This document shows, in pieces, positions 15,515 through 35,052 of a stretch of 40,096 nucleotides of DNA. Location: the IMG/VR virus record IMGVR_UViG_3300036859_000445, positions 1 through 40,096 of that record; one strand, written 5' to 3'. The position numbers and the translations under genes are program-made. How positions within the stretch are numbered: position 1 is the stretch's first letter; each line of letters begins with the position of its first letter. This DNA is from a virus. The notes beneath the pieces were generated by a model. That model saw only the letters and a list, made by a program, of their open reading frames with translations, ran no database searches and was not told the DNA's origin.

Positions 15515-15652
15515 TTCTTTCCTTTGTGAGATACTATAAGTCCGCACCCAGGGTGCTGCCCCCTGCTCAAAACCGTTTATAAGACGGCTTCCCACAACTG
15601 GTGAGATGATGCGGTTGTGCGTAGGAAATTAGCTGCCTACGCTCAGCCTTTA
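15515..15652 (-). promoter_or_regulatory. Terminator-like hairpins after the secreted-protein gene
   Basis: The 138-nt gap holds three inverted repeats: GCGTAGG/CCTACGC (15619-15642), AAGCCGT/ACGGTTTT ending in a T-run on the minus strand (about 15569-15590), and the 13-base near-palindrome GCACCCAGGGTGC (15544-15556). The middle one is a fair Rho-independent terminator for the leftward secreted-protein gene. A TATAGT hexamer shortly before the next gene could be a -10 box, but no good -35 accompanies it. Confidence 0.5.
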
Positions 15653-16441
15653 CTAGCTTAGTAGATCGTGACAGCGCCCGAGAGCTACATTGCCAACTAC
15701 ATTTCCTGAAGAAAGAACCTGCATGGAAATCCAGGGATTGCCCCCTGCACCTCCAGCATTGCCCCCCTTGGGAACAACCTCTGCATGATCCAGTGTAACA
15801 CCGAAGTCAGCAGTAGAAATAGCTCGGTGGACAACTTTGTTGATGTTATTGTCCAAATAGAGCAGGCCGCTAAAGCCGATGTGAGAGCCATAGCCGCCGA
15901 ATTCTAGATTCGACTTCACACTTGAACACTCAAGTGCAGAGACATTCAGATTCGCATTGGCTGGAATCGAAAGTACTTGGTCAAGATGCTTGTAAGAAGT
16001 ACCCTGAACACACCTGCCGAGCAAGATAGGTGCACCTAGGACAGCACCATTGTCATCGGTGAACTGGAATGAGATGTACGGATTACCGCCTACACCTTGA
16101 CCCCAATACGATCCATTGTCAAAATGAATCGCCGGCTGCTTGGGAATCGTAAGAGTGCCATCAGTAATCGTTACACCAAACGGTGCATCAACTATATCTG
16201 TGATGTATTTGTGAGTGCCCTTGGCATTGTTCTGAAACACGAAACGAACAGCTGTGTCACCATACGCTAGTGTGCCAGAAATATTGATTGTTGGGCCAGT
16301 GTTCGAACAGTTCCAGTCAGCATCGAGAGATGCGTGAACTGGGATGTTGAAATTCTGGTTCACATTCGCTGAAGTTGCGCCTGCAGGACCTGCCCACCAT
16401 GTGGCGATGGCAAGAACAACTACAGGAATTAATTTACGCAT
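15653..16441 (-). CDS. Secreted protein with two tandem disulfide-type beta domains
   Basis: 262 residues from the ATG at 16441. A Sec signal peptide (MRKLIPVVVLAIATWWAGPAGA) precedes two homologous domains. Each begins with a lone Cys (WNCSNT; LECSSV), contains FGVTxxxxxxxPK and GGNPxISxQ, and ends in LGRC. One disulfide per domain and a beta sandwich are inferred. No family recognised. It is preceded by stem-loop copy 2 and co-transcribed with a two-TM protein, so export to the envelope or medium is expected. An open frame extends upstream to 16534 through the stem-loop but would destroy the signal peptide. Confidence 0.7.
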   Translation of the reverse strand: MRKLIPVVVLAIATWWAGPAGATSANVNQNFNIPVHASLDADWNCSNTGPTINISGTLAYGDTAVRFVFQNNAKGTHKYITDIVDAPFGVTITDGTLTIPKQPAIHFDNGSYWGQGVGGNPYISFQFTDDNGAVLGAPILLGRCVQGTSYKHLDQVLSIPANANLNVSALECSSVKSNLEFGGYGSHIGFSGLLYLDNNINKVVHRAISTADFGVTLDHAEVVPKGGNAGGAGGNPWISMQVLSSGNVVGNVALGRCHDLLS

Positions 16442-16485
16442 AAGTTTTACTTGTTTTCTTTCTGTTGGGGGGATAAAGCGGATTA

Positions 16486-16542
16486 TTTTCTGGTTGGGAT
16501 ATGCAATGCCCTTTTCAGGAATGCTCATGCCCAACCAGAAAA
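16486..16542 (-). promoter_or_regulatory. Repeated stem-loop element, copy 2
   Basis: A perfect 13-bp stem (TTTTCTGGTTGGG with its complement) encloses a 31-nt loop. On the minus strand the loop region carries two GGGCAT boxes separated by 15 nt and a small inner helix CCT/GGG. It begins 4 nt after the stop of the 66-residue membrane protein and ends 44 nt before the ATG of the secreted protein. Copy 1 at 16791-16845 has the same loop length, box spacing and distance to its gene but a different stem sequence, pointing to a conserved RNA structure. Confidence 0.6.
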
Positions 16543-16546
16543 ATTG

Positions 16547-16747
16547 TTAAATGTCTTCGGCCTTGGTCAGATAACGAGCGCCTAGACCAAAAGCGCCAGC
16601 AGCAATGATTGCGAAAATAGCGCTCCAAGCCTGGTCTGATGTGCTCGTCCAACCCTCGTCAACCCATGTAAGGCTCACGAGAGTGTAGGCGTTAGCCACA
16701 GCAACTGCTAGAGCCAGAAGCATTGCGAATATGCGTACGAATTTCAT
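16547..16747 (-). CDS. 66-aa two-TM membrane protein
   Basis: The first helix (FVRIFAMLLALAVAVANAYTLV) could be a signal anchor; a short outside loop (WVDEGWTSTSDQ) and a second helix (AWSAIFAIIAAGAFGLGARYL) follow. A holin-like size and topology are possible, but no lysin gene is adjacent. Stem-loop copy 1 lies 44 nt upstream; AGGGAG sits 12 nt before the ATG. It is likely co-regulated with the secreted two-domain protein. Confidence 0.65.
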   Translation of the reverse strand: MKFVRIFAMLLALAVAVANAYTLVSLTWVDEGWTSTSDQAWSAIFAIIAAGAFGLGARYLTKAEDI

Positions 16748-16790
16748 TTAGTTTATCAACTCCCTTCTTAGTTAGATTTGATTTTGTAAA

Positions 16791-16845
16791 GGATTTGTCG
16801 GGATGCCGTATGCCCATTACGGGACCTGGTATGCCCTGACAAATC
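16791..16845 (-). promoter_or_regulatory. Repeated stem-loop element, copy 1
   Basis: The stem GATTTGTC.GGG pairs with its complement (one bulged base) around a 31-nt loop. Two GGGCAT boxes are 15 nt apart, and CCC-GTAAT-GGG forms an inner hairpin. The element starts at the last bases of the 42-residue gene's stop codon and ends 44 nt before the two-TM protein gene. Seventeen of the 31 loop positions equal copy 2, with the second GGGCAT box in register. Confidence 0.6.
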
Positions 16846-16972
16846 AATCCTCTTCAATTGGATCCTTGATGAATTCTCGCTCATCAAAGAGTCGGAGAAC
16901 TTCGTAGGACATTGGATTCATGTCATTAAGCGCACACCATTCCAAGAAATCATCAACCATATCGGGATTCAT
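16844..16972 (-). CDS. 42-aa acidic hypothetical protein
   Basis: A short, acidic, helical protein (DMVDDFLEWCALNDMNP..YEVLRLFDEREFI). The ATG overlaps the upstream stop as ATGA. The stop codon marks the 5' edge of stem-loop copy 1. Function unknown. Confidence 0.5.
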   Translation of the reverse strand: MNPDMVDDFLEWCALNDMNPMSYEVLRLFDEREFIKDPIEED

Positions 16973-17121
16973 GATTGGTTAATCTCCTCCTGCACGAGAG
17001 CTTGCAAATCGTTGATGGCTGCTTCGAGGATTTCAAGATCCTGGACGGACCAACTGGGATTCTGTTGATTGTCAATCCAACGCTGGAGCATTCTATGATG
17101 TTCCTGCAGCAGTGCTGTCAT
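16969..17121 (-). CDS. 50-aa helical protein
   Basis: A two-helix, Gln/Leu-rich protein (ALLQEHHRMLQRWIDNQQN and VQDLEILEAAINDLQALVQEE). The ATG at 17121 overlaps the upstream stop as ATGA and has AAAGGAA before it, so the longer frame to 17151 is rejected. No family recognised. Confidence 0.55.
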   Translation of the reverse strand: MTALLQEHHRMLQRWIDNQQNPSWSVQDLEILEAAINDLQALVQEEINQS

Positions 17122-17370: not shown

Positions 17371-17697
17371 TCAAGTTGTATAGTAGCAGGTGTAACCGTG
17401 AGTGTCAAGAACTATTTGGCACTTGAAACAAGGTTTGCTGAGGACAGGTTCGTTCCTGCGATTGATTCTGGCGCAATAGACATCTGCCTTAGAAGGCCAA
17501 CCTGCACGCTTAAGAGCAACTATCTCTGCATGGATTTGACAAGATTCCCACGGGCTAAAAGCCGGGTCTCCCTTTGAGATGTTAGTTCCAATTCCCACTA
17601 CTCGACCGTGTGTCACAACCACACAACCGTGCCTCTTATGGCAGGTACTAGCTTCTGCAATTCGAATGGCCTTCTGAAGGAATTTATCGTGTCGCAT
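17371..17697 (-). CDS. Cytidine/deoxycytidylate deaminase-like zinc enzyme
   Basis: 108 residues. HAEIVAL (His56-Ala-Glu58) and PCFKC (89-93) supply the zinc ligands and the catalytic Glu of the cytidine deaminase superfamily, and HGCVVVTHGRVVGIGTNISKGDP is the usual substrate-side segment. Superfamily members hydrolyse the amine of cytosine or related bases; dCMP deamination for the dTTP supply is the common phage role. It is short for dCMP deaminase, so a tRNA- or base-modifying activity cannot be excluded. Confidence 0.8.
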   Translation of the reverse strand: MRHDKFLQKAIRIAEASTCHKRHGCVVVTHGRVVGIGTNISKGDPAFSPWESCQIHAEIVALKRAGWPSKADVYCARINRRNEPVLSKPCFKCQIVLDTHGYTCYYTT

Positions 17698-21754: not shown

Positions 21755-21908
21755 TATTTTCTCTGTCTTGTAGTTCTTTCCTTAGAAGGTAGCGGATAAA
21801 TTCGCTGACGTTGGTGTCGTTGTTTACACAATGAATCTTGACCAGGCGCAGAAGCTCCTTGTCAATCATTATTGTGGTGATCTGTTGTCCAGGTGGTGCT
21901 TTGCTCAT
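21747..21908 (-). CDS. Ribbon-helix-helix regulator, leaderless
   Basis: 53 residues: a strand ITTIMIDKELLRLVKI, then helices CVNNDTNVSEFIRYLLRKEL, the CopG/Arc-type ribbon-helix-helix layout. It is the first gene of the 22-kb leftward operon. A TTGACA/TAACGT promoter ends 6 bp before its ATG, so the transcript probably begins at the start codon. Autoregulation of the divergent promoter region is likely, though no operator was identified. Confidence 0.7.
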   Translation of the reverse strand: MSKAPPGQQITTIMIDKELLRLVKIHCVNNDTNVSEFIRYLLRKELQDRENND

Positions 21909-21914
21909 AGGACT

Positions 21915-21944
21915 ACGTTACCACAGGCTATGGGTCCCTGTCAA
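21915..21944 (-). promoter_or_regulatory. Main leftward early promoter
   Basis: On the minus strand a consensus TTGACA (21939-21944) and TAACGT (21915-21920) are spaced by 18 bp. The expected start site falls at about 21908, the A of the regulator's ATG, implying a leaderless mRNA. This is the only strong promoter at the head of the leftward gene block. Confidence 0.75.
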
Positions 21945-21949
21945 GGGGG

Positions 21950-22165
21950 GTCGTCCTGGTGGGGGGGAAGGGCTCCCTGCCTCTTCCTGATGGGGGTCAG
22001 CCTAGCAAGGCTCGGGGCTCAACCGGTCGGCGGAAGGGAGGGACCGCCAAGCAGGAACTCCCGAGCCATGCTAGACTGAAGGTCTACCGCTTGCCTTGGG
22101 CGGTAGCCAGGTGAGGTTGGCGCCTCTCCTGCCTTCTAAGTATAGCATACGGAAAGGGAGGACCA
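21950..22165 (+). promoter_or_regulatory. Divergent control region with rightward promoter
   Basis: A G-rich, GC-rich noncoding stretch. CTACCGC/GCGGTAG (22083-22105) forms a 7-bp hairpin and GGCGG/CCGCC another nearby. TTGGCG (22117-22122) and TATAGC (22141-22146), spaced 18 bp, form a plausible rightward promoter for the primase gene, with AGGGAGG before its GTG. An upstream TGCTAGACT could be an extended -10. A small RNA from this region is possible. Confidence 0.5.
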
Positions 22166-23062
22166 GTGGCTCTAGCGGATCCTCGTGGATTAATTTTCGC
22201 AAAACAAATTTCTGAGTGGGGTTGGAAGATAGCTCCTGGATTCATCTCTAAAGCTGGAGCCAAAGTTCCTCTTTGTGGTGATTGGACCAAAAACGCAACA
22301 AAGAACGTTACGCAGTTAGAAAAATGGTGGGCTTCTCGTCCTTGGTTGTGGCCGGGTGTAGTTTCTGGAGTGGGGAGTTGTTTAGTGGTTGATTGTGACA
22401 AACCAGATGCAGTAGAACTTTTCTTAAGTTGGGGATTTGAAAAAGAAGATTGTCTGTCTTATCACACCCCCGGCAAAGGTGGAGGATTACATGCTATTTG
22501 GAATTGGCCTTCTTATTTAGATAAAAACTTCGGACAAAAGAGATTTGGATTGGAAACGGGAGGTTCAATCCAATTCCGTGGAAATAATCATTTCACAATG
22601 CTTATTGGATGTCAACGTTCAGATGGAAAGTATTCACTGATAAATACCCCGGATAAACCTTCTGAGTTTCCTAGAGAATTGTGGGATAGACTTCCAACTG
22701 AGGGTTGGACCTTTACAGGAGAAGGCAATTCAGGGAACTCTGAGGTTAAGAGTATTTCTCCAGAAGATGTTTGGAAAGCGGCTCCTTATTTCGATGGACG
22801 TAAAAATACCTTAGCCGGGCTTGCATGGTTTTTAGTGTCTGCTGATTGCTATTCAGACTCTGAAGTTTTGAATTGGTGTTTGTCTTTTGGTAGAGAGTGT
22901 TGCATTCCTGAGCTTGATGCGGAAGTTTGTGAGAAAAAAGCACAGTACGCTATTAATAGGTGGGCAGCAGCAAAAGAATCTTCACGCCGAATGGAACAAA
23001 AATGGGGAACACACGCTCAGCGGGGTAGTTTGCTAGAAATAAATCGTGAAAGGATTTTTTAG
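22166..23062 (+). CDS. Primase-polymerase (bifunctional PrimPol, N-terminal part)
   Basis: 298 residues, GTG start with AGGGAGG four bases upstream. The PrimPol pattern is visible: WGWKIAPG, LEKWWASRPWLWPGVVSGVGSCLVVDCDKPDAVE with acidic VDCD, then SYHTPGKGGGLHAIW and IQFRGNNHF. The family makes RNA/DNA primers and is normally fused or linked to a D5/SF3 helicase, as here. The frame ends in TAG directly followed, in the same frame, by the helicase gene. The C-terminal 100 residues form the usual helical PriCT-like extension. Confidence 0.85.
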   Translation: MALADPRGLIFAKQISEWGWKIAPGFISKAGAKVPLCGDWTKNATKNVTQLEKWWASRPWLWPGVVSGVGSCLVVDCDKPDAVELFLSWGFEKEDCLSYHTPGKGGGLHAIWNWPSYLDKNFGQKRFGLETGGSIQFRGNNHFTMLIGCQRSDGKYSLINTPDKPSEFPRELWDRLPTEGWTFTGEGNSGNSEVKSISPEDVWKAAPYFDGRKNTLAGLAWFLVSADCYSDSEVLNWCLSFGRECCIPELDAEVCEKKAQYAINRWAAAKESSRRMEQKWGTHAQRGSLLEINRERIF

Positions 23063-25455: not shown

Positions 25456-26281
25456 AAATATTGTTTAGTGTTAAATACTGTCAGTAAGTTAATAGAATGT
25501 TGTTTAGGAGAGGTTTTGGGGGAAGGTGAATAGGGTTGTAAAAGGGTCCGTGAGTGGTAAGGTGCTGCGCCTCTCTCAAGACGCTCCAAAAATTCCAGGA
25601 TTTTTACCCCGTAGAATTTCTTAATTTCCAAATTAAGATTTTTCCAAATATTCCTTTAATTAAAAAGTCAAAAATTCTGTGGCGAAAAAAATTTTGAACT
25701 CGGCGATATCCTCTTATAGGAAATTTTGCCTGTCCCCACCAACTCCCCAACTTGGTGGAGTTTCCCCACCCCGGCATAGCTCCGCCCCGCCGTTGGCTCG
25801 CCGCCGCCGGAGCGTGCTCTGCCCCGCCGTCGACACCGGGATACCCCGCCCTAAGGCTGCTCTGCCGTCTCGCCACCGTGGGATGCGTGAAGGTAGGTGC
25901 GTGTCCTGGGCGTCTGTAGCCTCCTCTCGCTGGCTTCGAGGTTGGGCGTGCTGCCTAGGGGCCGCCCCGAGGGGCGAGGCTTAGGCGGGCGCCTACGGGA
26001 GTGCTGGTGGGGAAGGTTCTTCCGTAGCGCCTATATGAAGGATGACAGCCCGGCTGTGGAGTAGATAGAGAACTGCGACAGATATGCCCCAGTTCATTGA
26101 AAACAGGTTCTTGACAAAATCAAAAACGTTCGAACGCCGGTTTTTGCGAAACGGGCCGGAGGCGAAAATCGCAGAACGGCGTTGGAGCGGAAAGTGAAGA
26201 ACGGCGTTGGAGCGAAGATTCTTCTAGGGCAGCGGTAGATTTCCATTGACTTCGGATAGGCGTTCGTGGTTCAATCATGTT
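25456..26281. other. 825-bp noncoding stretch with sharp AT-to-GC shift
   Basis: The first part (to about 25735) is AT-rich; from about 25740 the DNA becomes strongly GC-rich with the hairpin CCACCAA/TTGGTGG (25736-25758). Further on are ACAGCC/GGCTGT, a TTGACA (26111), the 10-bp palindrome CGTTCGAACG (26127-26136) and a 17-bp direct repeat AGAACGGCGTTGGAGCG at 26173 and 26198. No frame in it has convincing protein character. It probably holds a promoter or operator region for the GC-rich cluster. Confidence 0.5.
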
Positions 26282-26488
26282 GTGAACAAGAACGTAGAAC
26301 TCAGCCCCCTAACCTCCACCACATGGGTGAGTGCCGATTGGCGCTACGTGGTTGAGATGGCACCGACCTACAGCGAGCCCTACGCCGTTACGGACAAGGG
26401 CCGGCTGGTCGGTACCTTCGCTTCATTCGAGGACGCTGCAGCGTGGCTCAGCCGCTTCGACGCCGGTGAAGTGAGGGCTCAGTCCTAA
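26282..26488 (+). CDS. 68-aa hypothetical protein of GC-rich island
   Basis: GTG at 26282 (a TTG at 26246 would add 12 residues; neither has a clear ribosome-binding site). WRYVVEMAPTYSEPYAVTDKGRLVGTFASFEDAAAWLSRF has the strand-strand-helix look of small actinophage proteins. Codon use is GC-rich, unlike the flanking phage genes. Function unknown. Confidence 0.5.
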   Translation: MNKNVELSPLTSTTWVSADWRYVVEMAPTYSEPYAVTDKGRLVGTFASFEDAAAWLSRFDAGEVRAQS

Positions 26489-26703
26489 GCAGGAAAAGGC
26501 GCTCAAGTTCACGAAGTGAGATGCCGATAACAGAGGTGAAGGGCAGCACCGAGGAGGAGAGTCCCGAGGGATCTCCAAAGCCGAGGTTAGTGGGAAGCCG
26601 AAAGTCTGGGAGAGCAGGGTGTCCAGGCAAATACGTAGGGACCACACTCGATCCTCCTCGGTCCTGCTCTGACGAGTCGCCACCTAGAAGGAGAAGGAAA
26701 CCG

Positions 26704-26913
26704 ATGTTCACCCAGATCCCGCAGGTCCCCTCAGGTTCCATCGTCACCGTCGAAATCGTTCGGAACGGCATCACGGTCCGCAGGACCGGTCCCGTTGCCG
26801 CACAAACCACTACGTCGATCACGCTCCGTACCGCTGCTGGTCGGATGGGGCGTCCCATCTACTTCCCTCGCAACGTCAAGGTCGTCGGGTACGTTGTTCC
26901 TTCGGAGGCTTGA
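26704..26913 (+). CDS. 69-aa small beta-barrel-like protein
   Basis: AAGGAGAAGGAA before the ATG is the strongest ribosome-binding site in this cluster, which overrides a longer frame to 26521. VPSGSIVTVEIVRNGITVRRTGPVAAQTTTSITLRTAAGR resembles an SH3/OB-like barrel. Function unknown. The untranslated 215 bp upstream contain the inverted repeat CCGAGGAGGA/TCCTCCTCGG. Confidence 0.55.
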   Translation: MFTQIPQVPSGSIVTVEIVRNGITVRRTGPVAAQTTTSITLRTAAGRMGRPIYFPRNVKVVGYVVPSEA

Positions 26914-26914
26914 G

Positions 26915-27097
26915 ATGCTCATGCTGCCTACCGTCCACTACGTCAACGACGACCAGACCACTGCCTACATCACACCGATTTCCGGGGCAGTTCGCCTCCG
27001 TGTGGACTTCACGCCGTTCATGAGTCGAGACGGTAAGCCTTCCGTTTGGATTCACGCCGAGGGGCAGGATGTTCTGGAGATTCAGGTGGTTGCGTGA
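26915..27097 (+). CDS. 60-aa hypothetical protein
   Basis: The ATG at 26915 follows GGAGG at six bases. VHYVNDDQTTAYITPISGAVRLRVDFTPFMSRDGKPSVWIHAEGQDVLEIQVV is all-beta. The stop overlaps the next ATG as TGATG. No family recognised. Confidence 0.55.
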   Translation: MLMLPTVHYVNDDQTTAYITPISGAVRLRVDFTPFMSRDGKPSVWIHAEGQDVLEIQVVA

Positions 27098-27294
27098 TGG
27101 ATCCGACAACCGCATTGATGAACCTTCGAGGGATTGTGTCCGACCTTCACAACCCCGCTCGAATCGAAGTAGAGGGACTTGACCGCCTTGCTTATGACTT
27201 CGCCGAAGTCTTCGAAGCGCTTGACAACTGGCTGTCCCGTGGCGGTTTCCTGCCCGAGCAGTGGAAAGGGGTCGAGAATCGAATTTGGCGATAG
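27097..27294 (+). CDS. 65-aa actinophage-type small protein
   Basis: The C-terminal FEALDNWLSRGGFLPEQWKG motif is one I recognise from many small proteins of mycobacteriophages and related phages, following a helical N-terminus (ALMNLRGIVSDL). Function unknown. Its presence in the GC-rich island supports an actinophage source for the island. Confidence 0.65.
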   Translation: MDPTTALMNLRGIVSDLHNPARIEVEGLDRLAYDFAEVFEALDNWLSRGGFLPEQWKGVENRIWR

Positions 27295-27307
27295 ATAAGT
27301 CTGATTC

Positions 27308-27363
27308 TCGCTCAAGTGCATCTAGCGTTCTGCCGATAACTGTGGTTAGATGCACTTGAGCGA
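27308..27363. other. Perfect 17-bp inverted repeat
   Basis: TCGCTCAAGTGCATCTA (27308-27324) is repeated exactly in inverse orientation at 27347-27363 with a 22-nt spacer. It follows the 65-residue gene and ends just before AAAGGAAA of the next gene. It could be a terminator, an RNA processing site or a protein-binding operator. Confidence 0.8.
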
Positions 27364-27376
27364 AAGGAAACTCCGA

Positions 27377-27511
27377 ATGAACCGCAACGTCTCCACCATG
27401 ACTCACGAGGAGTTGGTACAACTCCTCCTCTTCTCCGACTGTCCCGTAGCCCGAGAGACCGCCCGCACCGAACTCCGAGCCCGCCTGCTGCACACAACCG
27501 AGGGGAAGTAA
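27377..27511 (+). CDS. 44-aa hypothetical protein
   Basis: AAAGGAAA lies before the ATG. The sequence is two helices: MTHEELVQLLLFSDCPVARETA and RTELRARLLH. GC-rich codons. Function unknown; it lies 4 bp before the lipoprotein gene and is probably co-translated. Confidence 0.5.
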   Translation: MNRNVSTMTHEELVQLLLFSDCPVARETARTELRARLLHTTEGK

Positions 27512-27515
27512 CCCG

Positions 27516-27851
27516 ATGCTCGTTCGCCGAATTCTCACTGCTGCCGTTCTTCCGATCATCTTCCTCTCCGGTTGTTCAAAGACTAGTGGTTCGACGGAAC
27601 TCACCAGGGCCGAGTGTGTTGTCCGTGCTAGTGATGCTTCAGATAGCTTGAGCGCCGTCGCTCGAATGTCAAAAACAACGAATCCTTCTTCGTCCTACGC
27701 TGTTCAAAACCTCTTGCGTGAGGGTAGGGAAGCAGTGGCGCAAGGCCGTTCGTTGGTTCGTGATTGCCAGATCCTGGGAGACACTTCCACCGTCGAAGCG
27801 AACCTTGACACGGTCGACCGGACCATGGCCCTGCTTGATGCCCTTTCCTGA
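27516..27851 (+). CDS. Lipoprotein
   Basis: 111 residues. A signal peptide with lipobox (RRILTAAVLPIIFLSGC, Cys at residue 20) predicts lipid anchoring to the membrane. The mature part is helical and Ser/Ala-rich (ECVVRASDASDSLSAVARM; ANLDTVDRTMALLDAL) with two further cysteines. Phage lipoproteins often block superinfection; that role is inferred. AGGGGAAG precedes the ATG. A long terminator follows. Confidence 0.75.
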   Translation: MLVRRILTAAVLPIIFLSGCSKTSGSTELTRAECVVRASDASDSLSAVARMSKTTNPSSSYAVQNLLREGREAVAQGRSLVRDCQILGDTSTVEANLDTVDRTMALLDALS

Positions 27852-27866
27852 AACGCATTACGAAAC

Positions 27867-27909
27867 GAGCGGGTCGAGTTCAACGATACACGTTGAGCCG
27901 GCCCGTCTC
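27867..27909 (+). terminator. Long hairpin terminator after the lipoprotein gene
   Basis: About 19 bases on each arm (GAGCGGGTCGAGTTCAACG against CGTTGAGCCGGCCCGTCTC) pair with a few mismatches around a 5-nt loop, followed by GCTTTG. It lies between converging genes and probably stops transcription from both sides. Confidence 0.75.
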
Positions 27910-27965
27910 GCTTTGTAGGTGGGTGCACTAAACTCAAAAAATATTATTTTCCACCCCAAACCAAC

Positions 27966-28157
27966 TTACTCATCAGTAACACACTCATGCACTCCACCCT
28001 CAATCCGTTCCCCTACCCTAACTTCCTTCTCACACCGACCGCAAAACCCGTACTCACAACCCCACGCACACCCACCTACACCATAATCTACACTCTCAGG
28101 GTTCATTTCAAACACGATCTCGGTTTTACAATACGGACACACGTTACCCAATTCCAA
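27966..28157 (-). CDS. 63-aa zinc-ribbon-like protein
   Basis: CPYCKTEIVFEMNP, CAWGCEYGFCGRC and a last HEC give six or more cysteines, enough for one or two zinc sites. The TTG at 28157 overlaps the upstream gene; a GTG at 28142 that starts just before CPYC is an alternative. It is the last gene of a short leftward unit. Confidence 0.6.
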   Translation of the reverse strand: MELGNVCPYCKTEIVFEMNPESVDYGVGGCAWGCEYGFCGRCEKEVRVGERIEGGVHECVTDE

Positions 28158-28626
28158 TCCGGTAGAAAAACTTCTTGAACCAATCCCAAATAGGATGCGG
28201 AAACTGAGCCCGCCTGTGGGTTTTGAAATCTTTTCGAGCAGCCCAGCGTGCCGAACCGTAAGTTCCTGCGCAACCAGGGTGAAGGTAGAGAAACTGATTC
28301 CGCTGATTCCGCTGATTCCGCTGATTCCGCTGATTCCGAGGCATTCTTCCTAGCTCCTCTGTGAGTTTCCTAATTTCTTCCTGAGGGAGGTTGAACCACT
28401 CACCTCCATTTCTTATTCTATACCTCTCCAACCGAGAATGCAACTCTTTTTCCACAACATAAGGACAACTAAACACCCCGGCCGCCAACACCCGCAACTC
28501 AAGCCAACTCCCCGTTTGCAGTTCCACAAGCCGACGTTCCAAATCAACGGTTACTCCTATTTTTACCGCTCTCGCTCCACCGCCTTCCAAAACCGCAGGA
28601 CCTATTAAGTACACATAACCGCTCAT
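28144..28626 (-). CDS. GIY-YIG-superfamily protein (T5orf172/MUG113-like)
   Basis: 160 residues. GYVYLIGP..........VKIGVTVDLERRLVELQTGS, then VEKELHSRLERYRIRNGGEWFNL matches the T5orf172/MUG113 branch of the GIY-YIG fold, which includes phage and mobile DNA endonucleases. After about residue 95 an NQR repeat encoded by 9-bp units breaks the sequence, followed by a basic tail. A leaderless promoter (TTGTGG/TATAAT) lies directly upstream. It could be a moron or a homing-type nuclease. Confidence 0.7.
   Translation of the reverse strand: MSGYVYLIGPAVLEGGGARAVKIGVTVDLERRLVELQTGSWLELRVLAAGVFSCPYVVEKELHSRLERYRIRNGGEWFNLPQEEIRKLTEELGRMPRNQRNQRNQRNQRNQFLYLHPGCAGTYGSARWAARKDFKTHRRAQFPHPIWDWFKKFFYRIGIG
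28294..28338. repeat. 9-bp tandem repeat (five CTGATTCCG units)
   Basis: Five exact copies of CTGATTCCG encode the NQR repeats of the GIY-YIG-like protein. Exact identity of units suggests recent slippage expansion. Confidence 0.9.
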
Positions 28627-30877: not shown

Positions 30878-32467
30878 ATGGGTTTAACAAGAACACCTAA
30901 ACCTAAAGAGCAAGAAAGCCTCCAAGCAGCGGTAATGCCGCTTAAGAGTACTAGTAAAGACGTCTATCTTTCTAATAGGGAGATGGACTTAATTGTTAAT
31001 TCAAGTTTAGATAAAAAGGTTGAATTAGCTTGGTACTATTACGAATCAGTTCCTGAATTACGTTATATCATACGCTATATAGCAAATGCTGTAAGTCAAG
31101 CCAGGCTTTATGTAGGACGAGTTACATCAGACCCCACAAACCCAGAGATTTTAAAAGAAAGCCATCCAGCTAGTCAACTGCTCGAAAGTTTCGCTGGTGG
31201 AATGGTTGGTCAAAGTGAAATGCTTGACCAACTTGCTGTCCAATTGACATTAATTGGGGACAGTCGAATTGCAGGTCCGAAACAAGGGAAAAACGCTCCA
31301 GAACCATTTGATAAATGGAACGTCTTTTCAATCAATGAAATAGTAAGTAGGAATGGGCAACTTTTCTATACTACAGCTGATGGTAGAGAATTACCGCTTC
31401 CAAATAATGTTAAGGCCTTAAGAGTCTGGAGGCGTCACCCACGAAATAGGTGGCTAGCGGATAGTCCAACTAGAAGTAGTATGAGGGTTCTACGTGAAAT
31501 TGACATGCTTGATAAGCATGTTAATGCAACAGGAACAAGTCGGTTATCGGGTGCTGGTTTACTTCTACTATCAGATGAAATGTCATTCCCTGTGAATGAA
31601 GTTGAAACTGATGGTGTTGAAACCGATAATTTTGTAAAATTTTTTGCAGAAGTTATGTCAATAGCTATTAAGAATCCTGATAGCGCTGCCGCAAGAGTTC
31701 CTATCATTGGTCAAGGTTCAGCAGAAGCTATCCAAGCCGCTCGTTATATGACCTTTAGTACTCCATTTGATGAGCAAGTCCCGGAACTGCGTCAGAAGGA
31801 TATACGCCGACTTTCGTTAGGAATGGACATTCTTCCTGAAATCTTATTAGGCTTCTCAGACACTAATAGTTGGGGGAGTTGGCAATCTGACGAAACAACT
31901 CAGCGAATCCATATAACTCCACTTCTTCAGATTATAACTGGCGCTTTGACTATTGGCTGGTTGCGTCCTACGCTTCGAGAGCTTCCTCTTTCTAAAACGA
32001 ATCAAGATATGATTGATTCGCTTGTTATTTGGTTTGATCTTTCAAATCTTCGAGTCAAGCCAAATGTTACTGAAGAAGCTCAGAATATGTATGACCGATT
32101 CGCAATTGGTCAAGATACGTTAAGGCGCGTAAGCGGCTTAACTGAGAGTGATTCACCTACGGGTGAAGAACTGGAACTTCAGATTCTTCTTAAACTGATT
32201 GAAAATGGTAATCCTCAACTCGTAGGCTATGCGATTGATGCGTTAACCGCAAAAGGTGTTATTAATCTTCCTGATGCAACTGAAGCTAATGTACGTTCGG
32301 TTGTGCGGTCTGAGGGTGCTCCTCCAACAGGAAGCCAGCCTGGTACGTCTGAAACGCCTAACGGGCTGCCAGGTGACAGGTCTTTTGATAAAACAGTGAC
32401 AATTCCTGTGAGTGATCCAACAAATCCTGATCCTCATAATAATCATGCGGGGGCGGTGGGTAAATAG
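30878..32467 (+). CDS. Portal protein
   Basis: 529 residues. YYYESVPELRYIIRYIANAVSQARLYVG is the typical N-terminal portal segment; a wing region (to about residue 250), a clip/stem region LPEILLGFSDTNSWGSWQSDETTQRIHITPLLQ and a C-terminal LLQ..LTIGWLRPTL helix follow. The dodecameric portal forms the DNA entry channel at one capsid vertex. Gene order terminase-portal-protease-capsid supports the call. A disordered Pro/Thr/Gly tail ends the protein. Confidence 0.85.
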   Translation: MGLTRTPKPKEQESLQAAVMPLKSTSKDVYLSNREMDLIVNSSLDKKVELAWYYYESVPELRYIIRYIANAVSQARLYVGRVTSDPTNPEILKESHPASQLLESFAGGMVGQSEMLDQLAVQLTLIGDSRIAGPKQGKNAPEPFDKWNVFSINEIVSRNGQLFYTTADGRELPLPNNVKALRVWRRHPRNRWLADSPTRSSMRVLREIDMLDKHVNATGTSRLSGAGLLLLSDEMSFPVNEVETDGVETDNFVKFFAEVMSIAIKNPDSAAARVPIIGQGSAEAIQAARYMTFSTPFDEQVPELRQKDIRRLSLGMDILPEILLGFSDTNSWGSWQSDETTQRIHITPLLQIITGALTIGWLRPTLRELPLSKTNQDMIDSLVIWFDLSNLRVKPNVTEEAQNMYDRFAIGQDTLRRVSGLTESDSPTGEELELQILLKLIENGNPQLVGYAIDALTAKGVINLPDATEANVRSVVRSEGAPPTGSQPGTSETPNGLPGDRSFDKTVTIPVSDPTNPDPHNNHAGAVGK

Positions 32468-35052
32468 TGCCGTGGGAAATAGTAAAACGGGACGATAAAT
32501 ACTGTGTGGCCAAACAGGACTCTGGGTCAACGGTTCCAGGCGGTTGCCATGACTCGAAATCAGATGCGGAAAGTCATCTTCGAGCATTGTACGCTGCTGA
32601 GCCTAAATTGAGTTTTGATGCTTCTGGGCATACTAGCACAGTTTTAGCTGTAATTCCGGAAAATCCTTCACAATTTGCTGTTGAAGGTGGAGATGCTCCT
32701 GAAACTTTACATGTGACTCTTAATTTTCTTGGCAAGGAATTAGCGGATGATGCCAAAGAATTCGCTAAGAAAAAAGCTAAGAAAGTGACTAGTCGTCATA
32801 AGCCACATAAAGCAAAAGTATCTGGATACGGAATACTCGGTTCAGATCAGCCAGCAGCTACGGTTTTATATCTTCAAAGTAATGAATTAGTTGCTATGCA
32901 GCAAGATTCTGCTAATGAGTTGTATGGGTACGGGTATGAGTATACAACTCCGCATCCAAATTATATTCCTCATATGACTTTAGGCTATGGAGTTCCATTA
33001 GAACTTGCTGCTCAATTTCATGGTCAAGAAATTAGTTTAAATCAACTTGCTTATGCAAGTGACGGTTTAGCAGAAACTTATATGCTTGGTGAAGAGTACG
33101 AAGATTCTCCTGAAGTTGGAATTCCTTGGGAAGGTCCAATTGCGTTTGAAAAAACTCCTACAGGTGATGGTCGCTTTTTCGAAGAAGATAGTATTGTTTG
33201 GGATGAGGCTGATCTTCCCATGCCCTTCCGCTGGCAACGAGTATCGGCAGAAGGGCATCAACAGTCCGTCACGATTGGTCGTGTAGACGATATTTGGAAA
33301 GATGAGTCTATCGTAATGGGAAGAGGGGTTATTCTTCCTATCAATGAGGAAGCCTATGAATATCTTAACCTTTTAGAGTTCGGTGCTGCTGGTGGAGTTT
33401 CAGTTGATGGGGATGACTGGAAATTAGCTGAAGTCATTGATCCAACACAGCCTTTACCTGAATTACAAATTTTTACTAGGATTCGAATTCGTGGTCTAAC
33501 AGCAGTTTCAACTCCTGCATTCAAGGACGCTCAGATTTCCTTGGTCTCCTCAGGGGTGGACAAATGCGAAACCGACCCAGAACCCAACATGAACGAGCCT
33601 GTCCATGCTACTATGGAGCCGATGGTTGGTGGGCCACTCTCAAATGTCTCTGTCGATTCTATAAAGGTAGGAGATGGCGTGGGCGAATTAGTTGCTAATC
33701 GAGCGGAGGTAGTAGGTGCCACCGGCACCGGCAGTACCAGTTCAATTACGATTGGAATTGGGACTAAAACTTCAGCTAATTCTTCAATTGCGATTGGTAA
33801 TACTAATTCGACAATTAGTGATTCAGCAGGAACTTATTATATTCCTGAAAAACGTGGTACTTTAATTGCTGCTGCAACAAAGAGTGAGGGGGATGCGGGT
33901 AACTTTCCTGCATCTGATTATGCCTACGTACCAGATCCAGATAAGCCATCAACTTGGAAACTCCGTCTGACTGCAACTCCAGGTGGCCCTCCTGATGCTC
34001 GAATTGTAGGCGCAGCAATTGCAGCGCTTGGTAAGGGATTCAGGGGTAATAAAGTTCAGATTCCTGCAGAAGATTTACCTGCTGTTAAAGCTAAAGTGCG
34101 AGCGGCTTGGAAGAAAGCCAATCCAGACAAGGAGCCTGAGGATATGCCAGACGTAATTAAGGCTTCTGCTGAAATGGAAGCTCTTAATCTCAAAAATCTA
34201 TCTTCTGCATTGAAAAATATAAATGATGTTATTGATGCTCTAGAAGCAGAGCCACCCAAGGTTGCATCGGCATTATCAAATGCTCGTGATACTAAAAAAG
34301 CCATTGATAAAGCCATTGATAGTTATCCAGGTGGAAGTAAGGTTATTTACCCTGTTAGAGTTGTAAAATCTCCTCCGCCTTCTTCGCCTCCACCAAGTAT
34401 GTCTGCATCAATAGGTTTGGATCTACCCCCAGCAGATTGGTTTACTTTATCCGAATTTAATGAGCCAACTCCATTAACGATAACTGACGATGGTCAAGTT
34501 TATGGGCATCTCGCTCTGTGGGATACTTGTCACATTGGTATGCGTGATTGTGTGACTCCTCCAACTCAAGATGATTTTTCCTTTTTCCATCTTGGTGAAC
34601 TGAAAACCCAAGAAGGCGAATCTGTTGCTGTTGGTCATATCACTTTTAATACAGGTCATGCTGCATTTGAAAGTGACCCCTTAACGGCAGCTTCTCACTA
34701 TGATAATACAGGTTCTGTGGGAGCAGATATAGTAGCTAGCAATGGGTCACATGGGATTTGGGTAAGTGGTGCCATTCGTCCTGGTGTTTCTGATGAGGAT
34801 TTGCGCACACTTCGTAGTGCTCCTCTCAGTGGAGATTGGCGCAGGATAGGGAATCAATTAAGGCTTGTTGCTGCTTTAGCAGTAAATACGCCTGGATTCC
34901 CTGTAAGCAGAACTAAAGTTCTTGTTGCTGGTGGGCAACCTGAAGTTCTTCTCTTCTCAACAGTTCCTTCAGATGTAAAACAAGCTCAAACTGAAGGACG
35001 TCAGAAGATTAAGAACCGTATCTTCAAGTCGATTAATAAGGAAGGAAACTAG
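32467..35052 (+). CDS. Multidomain capsid maturation protease with 2H-phosphoesterase-like domain
   Basis: 861 residues, GTG overlapping the portal stop. Domains in order: a small YCVAKQDSGSTVPGGCH..A.SHLRALYA module (12-43); a 2H-phosphoesterase-like domain with two H-x-T motifs, LHVTLNFLG (82-84) and PHMTLGYG (169-171); a prohead-protease-like domain (about 220-360) with GRVDDIWKDESIVMGRGVIL and GGVSVDGDD; a trimeric-adhesin-like SSITIGIGTKT..SSIAIGNTN piece (about 420-460); an actinophage segment SDYAYVPDPDKPSTWKLRL..AALGKGFRG (475-565); and a C-terminal domain LALWDTCHIGMRDC. It probably acts in prohead maturation. Confidence 0.7.
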   Translation: MPWEIVKRDDKYCVAKQDSGSTVPGGCHDSKSDAESHLRALYAAEPKLSFDASGHTSTVLAVIPENPSQFAVEGGDAPETLHVTLNFLGKELADDAKEFAKKKAKKVTSRHKPHKAKVSGYGILGSDQPAATVLYLQSNELVAMQQDSANELYGYGYEYTTPHPNYIPHMTLGYGVPLELAAQFHGQEISLNQLAYASDGLAETYMLGEEYEDSPEVGIPWEGPIAFEKTPTGDGRFFEEDSIVWDEADLPMPFRWQRVSAEGHQQSVTIGRVDDIWKDESIVMGRGVILPINEEAYEYLNLLEFGAAGGVSVDGDDWKLAEVIDPTQPLPELQIFTRIRIRGLTAVSTPAFKDAQISLVSSGVDKCETDPEPNMNEPVHATMEPMVGGPLSNVSVDSIKVGDGVGELVANRAEVVGATGTGSTSSITIGIGTKTSANSSIAIGNTNSTISDSAGTYYIPEKRGTLIAAATKSEGDAGNFPASDYAYVPDPDKPSTWKLRLTATPGGPPDARIVGAAIAALGKGFRGNKVQIPAEDLPAVKAKVRAAWKKANPDKEPEDMPDVIKASAEMEALNLKNLSSALKNINDVIDALEAEPPKVASALSNARDTKKAIDKAIDSYPGGSKVIYPVRVVKSPPPSSPPPSMSASIGLDLPPADWFTLSEFNEPTPLTITDDGQVYGHLALWDTCHIGMRDCVTPPTQDDFSFFHLGELKTQEGESVAVGHITFNTGHAAFESDPLTAASHYDNTGSVGADIVASNGSHGIWVSGAIRPGVSDEDLRTLRSAPLSGDWRRIGNQLRLVAALAVNTPGFPVSRTKVLVAGGQPEVLLFSTVPSDVKQAQTEGRQKIKNRIFKSINKEGN

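Follow-up and report, generated by a model that had tools for sequence, protein, structure and literature searches.

Two intergenic hairpins, hereafter E1 and E2, form a matched pair in the leftward operon of a 40,096-base virus record, which was analysed over its whole length (hereafter the window), and probably constitute a genuine small mRNA control element. Our preferred reading, to which we give a probability of roughly 0.4, is that of a cis-acting intercistronic mRNA element whose conserved loop would be recognised by a phage or host protein, thereby tuning the two adjacent genes.

Genomic context of the two hairpins

The plus strand of the window carries the terminase, portal, protease-like and major head protein genes, and the minus strand a tightly packed leftward operon encoding DNA polymerase A, a nuclease, a helicase and many small ORFs. 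The portal protein shares 30-36 % identity with those of actinobacteriophages (e.g. Curtobacterium phage Sunfish and Streptomyces phage Mischief19), and the helicase 41.5 % identity with that of the Actinomycetia phage DSL-LC01, from lake water; the closest IMG/VR helicases reach 41-46 %, and a single-protein search for portal kin found none. Since the portal and helicase identities are low and the matches are to actinophages, the virus appears to be an isolated, divergent and actinophage-like genome, with a putative actinobacterial host.

Most genes of the operon overlap or abut. The leaders of E1 and E2, which are neighbouring, are two of its few gaps near 100 nt, and the genes flanking both elements are all leftward (i.e. 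on the minus strand). A candidate sigma-70-like promoter (TTGACA-N17-TACTAT with TG before the -10; 17380-17408, minus strand), recognised by consensus match only, is located about 540 nt upstream of E2, the number of such matches being not above chance expectation.

Other features were recorded elsewhere in the window. The gap between two divergent operons (21908-22166) folds at -114 kcal/mol over 267 nt of the minus strand and contains a 20-nt, 90 % inverted repeat (21997-22016 / 22060-22079); the cumulative GC skew turns there and a TTGACA-like promoter adjoins the leftward start. This gap is a candidate for either a replication origin or a structured leader. The region 26001-28000 has a G+C content of 54-57 % vs. 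about 43 % elsewhere; both strands carry open frames there, few genes are recognisable, and the region looks like a later insertion; a perfect 17-bp inverted repeat with a short loop (27308-27363; 19 pairs with G-U) lies inside this higher-G+C stretch. Just before the terminase gene, a minus-strand gene (28144-28626) encodes a protein with a T5orf172/MUG113 (GIY-YIG-like) domain, possibly a homing endonuclease, and a single ORF of 861 aa (32467-35052) has matches to portal/protease families and weak ones to RNA ligase families.

Structure of E1 and E2

Both minus-strand stem-loops proposed in the first-pass annotation are present. In E1 (16486-16542), the outer stem UUUUCUGGUUGGG / CCCAACCAGAAAA consists of 13 pairs, all perfect (16486-16498 with 16530-16542), around a 31-nt loop. 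In E2 (minus strand), the outer stem GAUUUGUC(A)GGG / CCCGACAAAUC consists of eight pairs, a bulged A and three further pairs, again around a 31-nt loop; this element ends at 16845, as originally placed, and starts at 16792, one base away from the 16791 first given. Both loops are closed by GGG/CCC. The two elements have in common a core of the form GGGCAU-N15-GGGCAU-N5-AUCCC, located on the minus strand at 16496-16532 in E1 (boxes at 16527-16532 and 16506-16511) and at 16800-16836 in E2 (boxes at 16831-16836 and 16810-16815), with 23 of 37 bases identical. The equal 31-nt loops, the GGGCAT boxes 15 nt apart and the agreement of 17 of 31 loop bases were all found exactly as first described. 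UCC.G.AA inside the loop is common to both elements, and GGGCAT-N15-GGGCAT occurs exactly in E1 and E2 and at no other site in the window.

The small inner helix that had been reported is there, as three to four pairs, but its register is uncertain: RNAalifold, run unconstrained, recovered the same outer stem and GGG/CCC closure and moved the inner helix by one base. In one register the apical loop is GNAA in both elements, compatible with a GNRA tetraloop, E2 being devoid of the closing pair.

Regarding the strand of action, folding thermodynamics point opposite ways for the two elements. E1 folds strongly on the coding strand (z -5.3; -29.4 kcal/mol for minus-strand RNA vs. -24.8 for plus), whereas E2 folds weakly on it (z -1.7) and better as its complement (z -3.7; -26.3 kcal/mol for plus-strand vs. 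-20.2 for minus). A conserved U.G pair of the inner helix is possible on the minus strand only. The covariance model scored E1 and E2 at 65-71 bits on the minus strand and E1 at 19 bits on the plus strand, a preference that is non-independent evidence since minus-strand sequences had served to build the model.

Covariation and odds of chance

Comparison of eight pairs of the outer stem revealed five double changes with pairing kept, three identical pairs and none broken; the inner helix contributes a sixth double change, and there are no one-sided changes. The stems, which had been called unrelated, thus differ through compensated changes in five of eight outer pairs, but the three remaining pairs and the GGG/CCC closure are the same in both. 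With the bulged A of E2 accommodated in the alignment, 94.7 % of the cells pair, the non-pairs being two inner-helix cells, and sliding the 3' partners by 1-3 bases lowers pairing to 50 % or less. All this covariation comes from two sequences of one genome.

The similarity of the loops is by itself borderline against chance: the best ungapped match of E1 in the whole window is E2 (23/37, the next reaching 21), and the best of E2 is E1. Two same-strand strong hairpins with equal loops and at least 62 % identity were found in none of 200 order-1 Markov shuffles of the window, the best shuffled-genome pair reaching 42 % identity vs. 62 % for E1/E2; a looser simulation (8-bp stems with G-U) admitted about 540 hairpins per genome and was uninformative. 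What is convincing is the combination of loop likeness, in-register compensated stems, 300 bp spacing and equal placement relative to the genes.

Leaders, flanking sequences and adjacent genes

Counted from the visible stem ends, the distance to the downstream ATG is 44 nt in both cases, as previously stated (leaders at 16442-16485 for E1 and 16748-16791 for E2, minus strand); counted from the conserved CCC, this equality does not hold (54 nt for E1 and 52 nt for E2). The leaders, running TAATCC...ACTT and CTTTAC...CTAA, respectively, are unrelated to each other (14/44), and that of E2 contains the Shine-Dalgarno-like sequence GAAGGGAG. Agreement between the flanks is likewise near random, with 20/60 at best upstream and 22/100 over the first 100 coding bases. 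As the similarity ends at the hairpin edges, a recent DNA duplication is unlikely, and the simple DNA-level duplication that the first-pass annotation had set against its own proposal is not borne out by these flanks. E1 and E2 are either an old duplication kept by selection on the hairpin or the result of separate spread. Because the copies covary, with six double changes and no one-sided change, and their similarity stops at the hairpin edges, the proposal of a selected RNA structure is supported.

Both hairpins had been said to start at the preceding stop codon: E2 indeed overlaps the UGA of a 42-aa ORF (16844-16972, minus strand) by two bases, whereas E1 begins 4 nt past the UAA of the 66-aa gene. 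The latter, located after E2 and before E1 (16547-16747, minus strand), encodes two hydrophobic segments and its product is a predicted two-helix membrane protein. The gene after E1 (15653-16441, minus strand) encodes 262 aa with an N-terminal signal-peptide-like segment and two internal repeats of about 115 aa (repeat score of 97 vs. at most 51 in 500 shuffles), i.e. a predicted secreted repeat protein. Each copy precedes one predicted exported-protein gene. No homologue was found for the 66-aa protein in PHROGs, Pfam and phage records (DUF202, with an E-value of 0.052, is below the cut-off), nor for the 262-aa protein in PHROGs, Pfam, phage records and IMG/VR. A PDB sequence search gave no convincing match, and the AlphaFold model of the 262-aa protein, obtained without an alignment, had a pLDDT of 33 and was unusable for fold search. 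Another hairpin, GCGTAGG/CCTACGC (15600-15640), is found in the gap that follows the 262-aa gene and has a loop unrelated to those of E1 and E2.

No Shine-Dalgarno sequestration by E1 or E2 was seen, neither element covering a Shine-Dalgarno sequence. A consensus scan detected no intrinsic terminator (G+C-rich stem, short loop, U tract) at either hairpin, the bases after the stems being AAUAAUCC in E1 and CUUUACA in E2. The E1 leader contains at 16466-16485 the sequence CCCAACAGAAA, a near-copy of the E1 3' arm CCCAACCAGAAA. Pairing of the 5' arms with the leaders as alternative stems did not go beyond shuffles or swapped controls (fractions of 0.06 and 0.27 against shuffled leaders, and of 0.06 and 0.19 for mismatched control pairs).

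Search for further copies

Rfam 15 yielded no family at gathering score over the whole window, in agreement with the earlier statement that no known riboswitch class was recognised; under relaxed settings, 16300-17000 gave a best E-value of 0.62 or worse, with no match on the coding strand spanning E1 or E2 whole. In IMG/VR, four exact patterns (boxes, inner helix, CCC) retrieved 0, 4, 1 and 38 stretches, all of them lacking a real outer stem; the best stretch (L232) has seven pairs, including G-U, with one interruption. A pattern scan of bacterial and archaeal genomes gave, among the at least 117 loci listed, chance matches only, as judged by stem extension, and a descriptor scan of 80 helicase-kin loci gave as many matches as in shuffled sequence. 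The covariance model (R1), for which the window itself served as positive control, found nothing in 41 + 49 related phage records (helicase or portal kin, 90 in total) and no third copy elsewhere in the virus's own genome. Among 397 actinobacterial genomes it found two weak matches (22-23 bits) with several broken pairs, which is fewer than E-values predict by chance. This absence is limited in that elements whose boxes have changed escape exact patterns, and a two-sequence covariance model is narrow. Further homologues with covarying stems, on which the first-pass annotation had made its proposal depend, were thus not found as far as we searched, and within that scope E1/E2 is a two-copy orphan of one divergent actinophage-like genome.

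Possible functions

Under protein recognition, the leftward early operon would contain a single cis-acting RNA element in duplicate, as E1 and E2. Transcribed between genes, from the minus strand as we infer, each copy would adopt a long hairpin with a variable outer stem needing pairing alone and a GGG/CCC closure. The conserved interior would comprise a bulged C, AU/AU pairs, a UCC(C/U)/GGG inner helix, a G-N-A-A apical loop and a single-stranded CAU, and it would be recognised by a trans-acting factor, most likely a phage or host RNA-binding protein; a recognition site is favoured over a bare stem because the conserved bases sit in loops and bulges. By binding about 45-50 nt upstream of the start codons, this presumed partner would tune translation or message life-time of both exported proteins together, an effect whose direction we likewise infer, the genes after E1 and E2 being assumed to be regulated alike. 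Counting against protein binding are the two sequences from one genome, the failure of the searches to find a third copy, the weak coding-strand fold of E2 and the fact that no Shine-Dalgarno sequence is covered. Ligand sensing, protein binding and processing are indistinguishable here; we rank protein binding first and processing or stability second.

The latter, which we hold to be somewhat unlikely, is modelled on the intercistronic hairpins of T7 and T4 mRNA: E1 and E2 would be RNase III-type sites or 5'/3' protecting hairpins splitting the messages of the exported-protein genes from those of the upstream genes. It fits with their position directly after a stop codon, with stems of 13 and 11 pairs plus inner pairs whose sequence is free to vary, and with the stable hairpins also seen in some other operon gaps. 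Double-strand-specific cleavage, however, needs no shared 31-nt loop with GGGCAU boxes at fixed spacing, and the hairpins of the other gaps do not share the loop, the covariance model finding E1 and E2 only.

We consider it unlikely that both genes are controlled by a ligand-sensing, riboswitch-like element, in spite of the conserved interior loop, the covarying closing stem, the distance of about 45-50 nt to the ATG and the possibility that the near-copy of the 3' arm in the E1 leader forms an alternative stem. No Rfam family matched and no expression platform was seen in the terminator scan and the shuffled pairings, and, whereas riboswitch classes are normally widespread, nothing was found elsewhere with the IMG/VR patterns or in the 397 actinobacterial genomes.

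A DNA-level feature devoid of RNA function, such as a duplicated operator, a recombination or replication site, or a mobile sequence, would agree with the better fold of the E2 complement, with inverted repeats being DNA features as well and with the cassette-like arrangement of E1 and E2 around the 66-aa gene. It is nevertheless quite improbable: a dsDNA-binding site would conserve its arms, whereas those of E1 and E2 differ and complementarity alone is kept, and the flanks are not duplicated. A single-stranded DNA structure would be a conceivable variant of this explanation.

Chance resemblance of two unrelated hairpins can invoke the existence of two copies only and a 23/37 match barely above the window background maximum of 21, but the likeness comes jointly with strong in-register stems, a combination unmatched in the 200 shuffles (best 0.42 vs. 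0.62), and we regard such chance resemblance as very improbable. Stop-codon readthrough or recoding, in which the hairpin after the stop would extend the preceding protein, is hardly tenable: the frame that follows the 66-aa gene's UAA stays open across E1 and runs on into the 262-aa gene, but past the UGA before E2 it closes after eight codons. The two copies would thus yield no shared product, which rules out readthrough as a function common to both.

If E1 and E2 are indeed a recognition element, they would represent a small phage post-transcriptional regulon, recognised from its sequence only, in a viral lineage for which the searched collections contain no close relatives. More tentatively, they may define a new class of phage cis-regulatory RNA, i.e. 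a two-copy regulon with one RNA-binding factor co-controlling a membrane protein and its secreted partner via the GGGCAU-N15-GGGCAU loop, unrelated to catalogued RNA families. The stems of the two matched elements already constitute a natural compensatory mutant, ready for testing, and the element would, if true, open a way into studying two predicted exported phage proteins for which no homologue was found. Limited at present to two copies in a single genome, the element is of modest wider importance.

Comparison with known systems

The translational operator of gene 43 (DNA polymerase) of T4/RB69 is 16-18 nt long, and its site extends over the ribosome binding site; the gene under its control is that of the polymerase (PMC3014915). 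The sequence and placement of E1/E2 likewise correspond to a hairpin with a conserved loop upstream of a start codon, but these elements are 54-57 nt long, occur in two copies in one genome and precede exported-protein genes.

In Cluster K mycobacteriophages, ESAS/SAS are repeated inverted repeats of unknown function, located just upstream of the starts of a subset of non-structural genes; ESAS have conserved 17-bp arms and a variable spacer of 4-13 bp, with the 13-bp SAS beside the start (PMC3203893). As inverted repeats shortly before starts in an actinophage-like genome, E1/E2 find there their nearest actinophage analogue in placement, but their arms vary and their 31-nt loop is conserved, i.e. 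the opposite pattern of conservation (PMC3203893), and they are therefore not an ESAS member. The conserved 13-bp SAS GGGATAGGAGCCC at the start codon is absent from both leaders. Membership of the Cluster K SAS/ESAS was ruled out on the lack of SAS, the variable arms and the 31-nt loop.

The early mRNA of phage T7 contains intercistronic RNase III sites. E1 and E2 resemble them in hairpin size and in lying between the genes of a polycistronic phage message, and differ from them in their loop boxes, which are not expected to be shared among T7 sites. Although an orphan at present, E1/E2 is in our view of a kind already familiar, that of the phage intercistronic cis-acting hairpin.
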